A DNA stretch of 15,961 bases. Origin: Limnohabitans sp. Lineage in GTDB: Bacteria; Pseudomonadota; Gammaproteobacteria; Burkholderiales; Burkholderiaceae_C. A model generated the notes under the pieces. That model saw only the letters and a program-made list of their open reading frames with translations. It made no database searches and had not been told where the DNA came from. The stretch is taken from positions 1 to 15,961 of the forward strand of contig JAKFXJ010000065.1 of assembly GCA_021731425.1 (NCBI GenBank). The letters run 5' to 3'. The position numbers and the translations under genes are program-made. This document shows, piece after piece, positions 7,114-10,045 of the stretch; position 1 is the first letter of the stretch, and each line of letters begins with the position of its first letter.

Positions 7114-7542
7114 TTAAAAAGGCTTGACCACCACCAACATGACAGCGGCCACCATCATCAACACCGGCGCTTCGTTGAACCAGCGGAACCAGACATGGCT
7201 GCGCTGCATCTGCCCGTTTTCAAACTTGCGCAAAAGGACACCACAACTGTGGTGGTAACCCAACAAAGCCAGCACGATCAGCAATTTCGCATGCATCCAG
7301 CCTTGGCCAGGGCCCATGCCGATACCGTAATAAAGCCAAAGCCACAGGCCCAGCGCCAAGGCCGGAACGGCCAGGATGGTCATGAAGCGGTACAGCTTGC
7401 GGGCCATCAGCAACAAGCGCTCACGTTCAGCGGTCGAGTCGGCCGGCACCATGGCCAAGTTGACATAAATGCGCGGCAAATAAAACAGGCCAGCAAACCA
7501 GCTGGCGATGAAAACAATGTGAAGGGCTTTGATCCAGAGCAT
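7114..7542 (-). CDS. hemJ: Protoporphyrinogen IX oxidase, HemJ type
   Basis: HemJ oxidises protoporphyrinogen IX to protoporphyrin IX, the next-to-last step of protohaem synthesis, in the inner membrane. The product of 142 residues has about four membrane spans and the family blocks LWIKALHIVFIASWFAGLFYLPRIYV (residues 2-27, in two parts), RKLYRFMT, and GWMHAKLLIVLALLGYHH. His8, the later histidines and the arginine/tyrosine pair of the first block are typical of HemJ. The frame is open to a TTG at 7593, but ATG 7542 is chosen because homologues begin MLWIKALHIV and the longer start lies in a terminator T-run. Its 5' side carries a structured RNA (7592-7693). Divergent hemB supports the haem role. 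Confidence 0.9.
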   Translation of the reverse strand: MLWIKALHIVFIASWFAGLFYLPRIYVNLAMVPADSTAERERLLLMARKLYRFMTILAVPALALGLWLWLYYGIGMGPGQGWMHAKLLIVLALLGYHHSCGVLLRKFENGQMQRSHVWFRWFNEAPVLMMVAAVMLVVVKPF

Positions 7543-7591
7543 GCTTCGAGTGTAGCCAGTGAAGGCCGAGGCAAGGGCCTGTTCGCAGGGC

Positions 7592-7620
7592 AAAAAAAAC
7601 CCCCGACCAGAGGCCGAGGG
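7592..7620 (-). terminator. Intrinsic terminator upstream of hemJ
   Basis: On the minus strand, bases 7620-7612 pair with 7608-7600 to give a 9-bp GC-rich stem (two G-U pairs) with a 3-base TCT loop. Eight Ts follow directly (7599-7592). It is the best intrinsic terminator in the window. It faces leftwards and ends about 50 bases before the hemJ ATG, so it cannot end any protein gene here and must serve the RNA upstream. Confidence 0.85.
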
Positions 7621-7693
7621 CAGGAAGCCTTTTTGCTTTCACACATCAAGGCGCCCGCTCAGGGAGGAAAAGCGGGAGGCAGCAAGCTGCCCG
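7592..7693 (-). ncRNA. Predicted ~100-nt structured RNA: small RNA or hemJ attenuator leader
   Basis: A good promoter (7700-7728) and a strong terminator (7592-7620) bracket this stretch, and between them hairpins are packed with almost no gaps. Hairpin 1 pairs 7691-7687 with 7682-7678 (GGCAG, loop CUUG, CUGCC). Hairpin 2 pairs 7676-7671 with 7659-7654 (CCCGCU with AGCGGG) around an 11-nt loop containing CCUCCC. Hairpin 3 pairs 7652-7648 with 7631-7627 (GCCUU with AAGGC). The terminator is the fourth. No convincing open reading frame fits. It is either a free small RNA or a transcription-attenuation leader of hemJ. The CCUCC loop complements Shine-Dalgarno sequences, as in anti-SD small RNAs known from Alpha- and Betaproteobacteria. 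It has not been compared with any database here. Confidence 0.7.
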
Positions 7694-7699
7694 AGAGGG

Positions 7700-7728
7700 A
7701 ATTTATCAAATAACAAAACCAATAACAA
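7700..7728 (-). promoter_or_regulatory. Sigma70-type promoter for the hemJ-upstream RNA
   Basis: On the minus strand TTGTTA (7728-7723) and TAAATT (7705-7700) are separated by exactly 17 bases in an AT-rich patch that stands out from the GC-rich surroundings. The start site should fall near 7693, just before the first hairpin. Confidence 0.65.

Positions 7729-7805: not shown

Positions 7806-10045
<2,240 letters not shown>

Follow-up and report, generated by a model that had tools for sequence, protein, structure and literature searches.

The minus strand of positions 7592–7728 in a Limnohabitans contig (JAKFXJ010000065.1; the window hereafter refers to the whole analysed stretch of 15,961 nucleotides) probably carries an anti-hemB small RNA (sRNA) gene of the Rfam family RF02837, with its own promoter and terminator and a predicted product of ∼100 nt that would act in trans with Hfq through a CU-rich loop. 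We assign this reading a probability of about 75%. The window looks like an additional member of an already catalogued sRNA family. The initial annotation had described an unannotated structured RNA that either forms a small RNA or controls hemJ by premature termination. We confirm the underlying observation, i.e. a promoter, three hairpins and a terminator on the minus strand of 7592–7728, and both sequence and conservation support a small RNA of ∼100 nt whose gene has its own promoter and terminator. The term 'unannotated' was wrong in kind, because the element is RF02837 and has a published Burkholderia homologue. The features are as follows.

7728–7723, minus strand: −35 box TTGTTA of the sRNA promoter, from sequence and coordinates.
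7705–7700, minus strand: −10 box TAAATT of the sRNA promoter, with a 17-nt spacer to the −35 box and a predicted start at ∼7693.
7592–7693, minus strand: anti-hemB sRNA, predicted transcript of ∼102 nt; the RF02837 match spans 7592–7679 and the 5′ end is predicted.
7692–7677, minus strand: hairpin 1, from the fold; outside the Rfam model, covarying.
7676–7654, minus strand: hairpin 2, from the fold; its loop (7669–7661) contains a CU-rich, anti-Shine-Dalgarno-like motif.
7652–7627, minus strand: hairpin 3, from the fold.
7592–7621, minus strand: intrinsic terminator, a 10-pair stem (7621–7599) and eight U (7599–7592), the first U being counted in the stem.
7554–7549, minus strand: hemJ −10 box TACACT, 6 nt before the hemJ ATG; a leaderless hemJ is predicted.
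7114–7542, minus strand: hemJ, open reading frame (ORF) and flanking gene; HemJ TIGR00701, E 1.7e-31, 109.2 bits, under the curated cut-off of 138.
7830–7858, plus strand: TTGGCA-17-CACAAT, resembling a promoter for hemB and separated from its ATG by 7 nt.
7866–8870, plus strand: hemB, ORF and divergent flanking gene; porphobilinogen synthase NF006762, 514 bits, over the cut-off.

The anatomy agrees closely with the initial description. The TTGTTA-17-TAAATT promoter is present at 7728–7700, although with 8 of 12 consensus matches it is not listed by our promoter scan, which has a threshold of nine; support for it therefore comes from relatives, as the same boxes and spacing recur within the genus in L211, and L214 has TTGTTA/TACATT. 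The fold gives the three tightly packed hairpins, with a folding energy of −45.9 kcal/mol that is moderately below that of shuffled sequences (z −1.99; 5 of 200 shuffles are equally stable). The terminator with its eight Ts is recovered by both the fold and the terminator scan, where it is one of four terminator-like sites in 451 bases (0.9 expected), and 49 bases separate its U run from the hemJ ATG at 7542, close to the ∼50 first estimated. The main grounds for excluding chance are the Rfam match and covariation; the folding energy alone contributes less.

Family membership was assessed by cmscan against Rfam 15, using the curated gathering score of each family. RF02837, found through the type of search that the initial annotation had suggested, is the one family that reaches its gathering threshold anywhere in the window (7679–7592, minus strand; 59.3 bits vs 49.5). 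The alignment is full-length (model positions 1–81 of 81; E 6.6e-12), the match adjoins and diverges from hemB, and it is the only RF02837 match in the genome (405 contigs, 82% complete). The element almost certainly does not belong to the double-hairpin 'Betaproteobacteria toxic small RNA' family (RF02278), which had also been proposed for checking: those RNAs (ncS03/05/27/62) share with it a CU-rich unpaired stretch complementary to ribosome-binding sites and a terminator hairpin, but they have two hairpins and ∼60 nt, unlike the three hairpins plus terminator found here, and the weak match of 19.4 bits lies far under the gathering score of 50, with five non-standard pairs marked in the alignment. 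The same genome has a separate RF02278 copy, its one match to that family (L216; G000:C139:949–1010; 56.2 bits).

The Burkholderia cenocepacia anti-hemB homologue, ncS04, is 105 nt long and is documented by 3′ RACE, dRNA-seq and northern blot (PMC5688073); the predicted length of ∼100 nt in the window agrees with this mapped RNA. The same source cites Hfq binding of ncS04, and its tables give no significant change in ncS04 level across seven conditions (PMC5688073). Anti-hemB is also listed among known-sRNA homologues in a B. pseudomallei study (PMC3521395). The window copy resembles RF02837/ncS04 (Burkholderia RNA 7) in its full-length covariance match, position beside hemB, own terminator and length. 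It differs in its sigma70-like promoter, in its hairpin 1, which lies outside the Rfam model, and in its downstream gene, which is hemJ instead of the engB found in the named Burkholderia records of anti-hemB. Our literature search by the number RF02837 returned no match, and the search on anti-hemB returned no named function.

We then examined how widely the element is conserved. Of 200 family genomes, 167 have an RF02837 match at E <= 0.001 and 157 have one over the cut-off; for 200 order genomes, the corresponding numbers are 154 and 133. Three of 14 control genomes have a weak match and none exceeds the cut-off. Some genomes contain several matches, with a maximum of six (G087, from the window's genus, and also G159). 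Extra anti-hemB-like copies in G087 (L212 and L213) lie away from hemB, each with a different upstream sequence, and two of the extra copies in this genome are 181 nt apart.

The loop CUCCCUGAGC is kept in all 61 model-chosen, best-scoring loci and in 12 of 20 low-scoring loci, being altered in the other eight; in L062–L179 the invariance of loop and hairpin 2 is by construction, as these copies were exact-pattern finds among the matches listed. In L228, L231 and L234 the main loop is altered (CCCCUCUAUGAGC) and the copy still lies beside hemB. The terminator loop of many engB-type copies (L032–L061) contains a second CU-rich stretch, CUCCCCUUUA.

The initial annotation had proposed looking for compensatory changes in relatives, and the stems do covary in 54 family-type and 40 engB-type sequences. 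The family-type alignment comprises 54 of 57 non-redundant rows (L002, L003 and L072 were left out), 37 of which were found by an exact pattern over hairpin 2 among the matches listed. With the structure of the window imposed, 17 of 31 pairs change on both sides (shuffle mean 12.1; none of 500 shuffles reaches 17), compared with 4–14 pairs for slid versions of the structure, and 85.3% of cells are paired, compared with 36–58% in the slid versions. The individual parts contribute differently: (i) in hairpin 1, all six pairs have both-side changes and 72.5% of cells are paired; (ii) in hairpin 2, all seven pairs form in all 54 sequences, an invariance that is partly by construction, and one pair shows a compensatory CG/UA change; (iii) in hairpin 3, 93.2% of cells are paired; and (iv) in the terminator, 8 of 10 pairs have both-side changes and 76.2% of cells are paired. 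What RNAalifold recovers from this alignment is limited to hairpin 2 plus three hairpin-3 pairs (2 of 10 pairs compensatory), which counts against a clean family-type consensus. From 40 hand-picked sequences among 75 non-redundant order/engB-type rows (Burkholderia-type ones left out), it recovers hairpin 1, hairpin 2 and the terminator, with 11 of 20 pairs compensatory. Overall, the two alignments do not show the missing conservation or covariation of the stems that the initial annotation had named as a refutation.

Genomic surroundings are conserved on one side of the sRNA and differ among lineages on the other. In the 61 model-chosen loci (the window and the 60 best-scoring ones, a biased choice), hemB is divergent from the sRNA in 46, at 75–299 nt from the match start, and was not found within ∼1.5 kb in 15; the anti-hemB RNA thus needs no place beside hemB. 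Wherever both were found, they are divergent; among the 20 low-scoring loci, 17 have a divergent hemB. On the downstream side, the window's family has a co-directional hemJ, and other families mostly have a convergent engB. Directly downstream, co-directional hemJ is found in 15 of 20 family loci with hemB (it is 1.2 kb away in one further locus) and in 9 of 11 low-scoring family loci, and it is undetected in the 26 order-level loci with hemB. Among the matches listed, 118 named copies (a second L099 copy was left out) comprise 62 with convergent engB downstream, 43 with co-directional hemJ and 13 with neither. Low-scoring non-family loci have convergent engB in eight of nine cases, the ninth (L229) having engB upstream. 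As for gene identities, TIGR00701 is the only NCBIfam match of the hemJ protein, and the engB fragment bears a YihA/YsxC name over the cut-off.

The position of the element leads to two other readings, both concerned with haem synthesis. The element could be a hemJ leader, so that transcription from 7728–7700 enters hemJ unless it is stopped at the terminator, as the initial annotation had offered with its idea of premature termination. The co-directional hemJ downstream in the window's family, here 49 bases after the terminator, speaks for such attenuation. However, hemJ appears to have its own −10-like box just before the ATG, which occurs in 24 of 28 placeable loci among the matches listed vs 0.34 in mononucleotide shuffles of the same stretches, for a pattern written, like those for hemB and the sRNA promoters, after viewing the sequences (of the 59 loci where hemJ is matched, 28 allow its start to be placed). 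Because of this box, hemJ need not depend on read-through. Moreover, engB stands convergent behind the terminator in the 62 named copies counted above, among the matches listed, and 15 of 61 loci lack hemB nearby. Attenuation of hemJ is thus disfavoured by the promoter-like box of hemJ and by the engB-type arrangement; the element probably does not serve as an upstream switch for hemJ, and we regard the leader reading as highly improbable.

Action of the sRNA on the adjacent hemB, by cis-antisense pairing or promoter interference, is suggested by the family name and by the divergent position beside hemB at most of the model-chosen (46 of 61) and low-scoring (17 of 20) loci. Geometry nevertheless rejects an antisense role despite the name, since the sRNA (7592–7693) and the predicted hemB message (from ∼7866) do not overlap and could not pair. 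In addition, hemB looks leaderless in the hemJ-type/family group, where GCACAATTT-N2-6-ATG precedes it in 27 of 52 loci vs 1 of 83 other hemB-linked loci (among the matches listed), which leaves nothing for the loop to cover. Both the hemJ and the hemB messages are predicted to be leaderless in the window, and a Shine-Dalgarno-like motif precedes hemJ in 2 of 28 placeable loci; leaderless messages would offer no Shine-Dalgarno site for the sRNA loop. Direct control of hemB is accordingly improbable for the window, although it might still operate in the other hemB-linked group, where the leaderless pattern fails. The claim of a new layer of haem control finds no positive evidence here, as the predicted hemB and hemJ messages look leaderless and are free of overlap with the sRNA; both hemJ attenuation and local haem control by the sRNA appear unlikely. 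The strong hemB synteny could reflect an undetected local role. The −10-like boxes directly before the hemJ and hemB ATGs (7549–7554 and 7853–7858) are kept in many relatives.

For the preferred reading, a trans-acting anti-hemB sRNA, we infer a sequence of steps in which a housekeeping-type promoter starts transcription at ∼7693, the terminator (7621–7592) stops it, the resulting RNA of ∼100 nt acts in trans with Hfq, and its exposed CU-rich loop UUUUCCUCCCUGAG pairs with the Shine-Dalgarno regions of target mRNAs, blocking their translation. Beyond the sRNA terminator, transcription of hemJ would begin at a separate promoter belonging to hemJ itself. Few parts of the element are as well conserved as the loop UUUUCCUCCCUGAG, which resembles an anti-Shine-Dalgarno sequence, and an Hfq gene is encoded in the genome (101 bits). 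Alphaproteobacterial cuckoo RNAs, to which the element is likened by description alone, also have an anti-Shine-Dalgarno motif in hairpin loops. A translation block in trans is the most likely action by analogy with the CU-rich Burkholderia sRNAs ncS03/05/27/62, for which Shine-Dalgarno occlusion has been proposed (PMC5688073).

A search for AGGGAGG-N2-11-ATG in the window's genome and in G087 and G189 established no target. It gave nine matches (eight sites) in the window's genome vs none for a reversed-pattern control, 26 vs 6 in G087 and 11 vs 6 in G189. Among seven of the nine own matches that we inspected, two distinct sites stand before an ORF of >100 aa (223 and 501 aa); these ORFs may be RadC-like and ComM-like. 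In 39 of 54 family-type and 6 of 40 engB-type sequences, the loop is followed by an ATG at no more than 20 nt; in 12 of the 39 the frame of this ATG closes ahead of the U run, and in the window it stays open through the terminator. A small ORF is disfavoured by the rarely closed frame and by the scarcity of the ATG in engB-type sequences, and a tiny peptide might at most conceivably be made from it.

The promoter class of the sRNA differs among lineages. Near-identical upstream sequences were removed before counting, mononucleotide shuffles of these stretches served as controls, and the engB-type and named hemJ-type copies are those among the matches listed. A loose sigmaE pattern (G[AG]AAC −35, TC..A −10) occurs in 18 of 26 order-level and 34 of 52 engB-type copies (shuffles 0.06 and 0.18), but in just two of the 19 family copies and none of the 38 named hemJ-type ones (shuffles 0.05 and 0.12), among the matches listed. 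Conversely, a sigma70-like pattern (TTG-N3-(16-18)-TNNANT) fits 25 of the 38 named hemJ-type copies and six of the 19 family copies (shuffles 0.41 and 0.06), and occurs in 0 of 26 order-level and 0 of 52 engB-type copies (shuffles 0.19 and 0.25), among the matches listed. Copies with neither class number 8 of 26 (order-level), 18 of 52 (engB-type), 11 of 19 (family) and 13 of 38 (hemJ-type), again among the matches listed.

Sixteen Burkholderia-type copies with GGTATAT[CG]ATA were set aside, as the loose sigmaE pattern caught seven of them at another distance. With these set aside, RpoE-like boxes stand at one fixed distance in 43 of 62 outgroup copies vs 0.08 in shuffles (among the matches listed), i.e. 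in 18 of 25 order-level and 25 of 37 engB-type copies (shuffles 0.03 and 0.045) and in none of the 19 family or 38 hemJ-type copies, all among the matches listed; the family copies L002 and L003 fit the loose pattern and fail the narrow distance. Upstream of the window sRNA, GGAAC-type −35 and TC-type −10 boxes are absent and TTGTTA-17-TAAATT is present instead. Both kinds of −35 box lie ∼60–64 nt before the loop motif, as if one had replaced the other. In L072, L083, L086, L091, L098 and similar copies (Paraburkholderia, Pandoraea), an inverted repeat GGTATATCATACC lies at the sRNA −10 region; GGTATATCATACC is perhaps a regulator site.

GGAACTT is the published −35 element of enterobacterial sigmaE, and Neisseria sigmaE uses another; the outgroup boxes are presumably recognised by RpoE in this order. 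They resemble those of RybB and MicA, the sigmaE-dependent sRNAs of enterobacteria, a likeness confined to the promoter boxes; unlike RybB and MicA, the window copy lacks such a promoter, and its genus lacks RpoE over the cut-off. We compared promoter class with RpoE presence (profile TIGR02939, cut-off 236 bits) over the sampled loci only. RpoE is over the cut-off in 50 of 61 searched relatives, including all 30 at the order level. It was not found over the cut-off in the window's genome (best 26.8 bits; genome 82% complete), nor in G087 and G189 of the same genus (60.5 and 64.8 bits; both estimated as 100% complete). Each of the 20 hemB-linked loci that the loose pattern assigns to the sigmaE class comes from a genome whose RpoE scores >= 269 bits, and none of the seven hemB-linked loci in genomes with RpoE <80 bits is of this class. 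Many family genomes have RpoE without such a promoter, so that loss of RpoE alone does not explain the promoter switch.

In the course of evolution the sRNA seems to have exchanged one type of promoter for another, and this change may be new: our literature search on RpoE together with betaproteobacterial or Burkholderia sRNAs, or with hemB, covered few subscription papers and returned nothing on anti-hemB. As a tentative history, to which we give somewhat less than even odds, anti-hemB would ancestrally be an RpoE-driven envelope-stress sRNA with an anti-Shine-Dalgarno loop, acting like RybB and MicA of enterobacteria. The promoter would then have been rebuilt to a housekeeping type in the Comamonadaceae-like lineage, TTGAAA/TTGTTA-17-TAAATT standing in the place where GGAACTT once stood. 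Subsequently, the window's genus would have lost RpoE and kept the sRNA, so that the RNA outlived its regulator.

In brief, the window adds one member to a known RNA family and revises the proposal that hemJ is attenuated. What deserves follow-up is how the promoter differs between lineages, and the comparative interest could lie in an sRNA whose anti-Shine-Dalgarno-like loop is strongly conserved and kept order-wide under a promoter class that differs by lineage. Such a pattern would provide a first testable hypothesis for anti-hemB, namely a role in envelope stress, and would be a natural example of rewired sigma-factor control.
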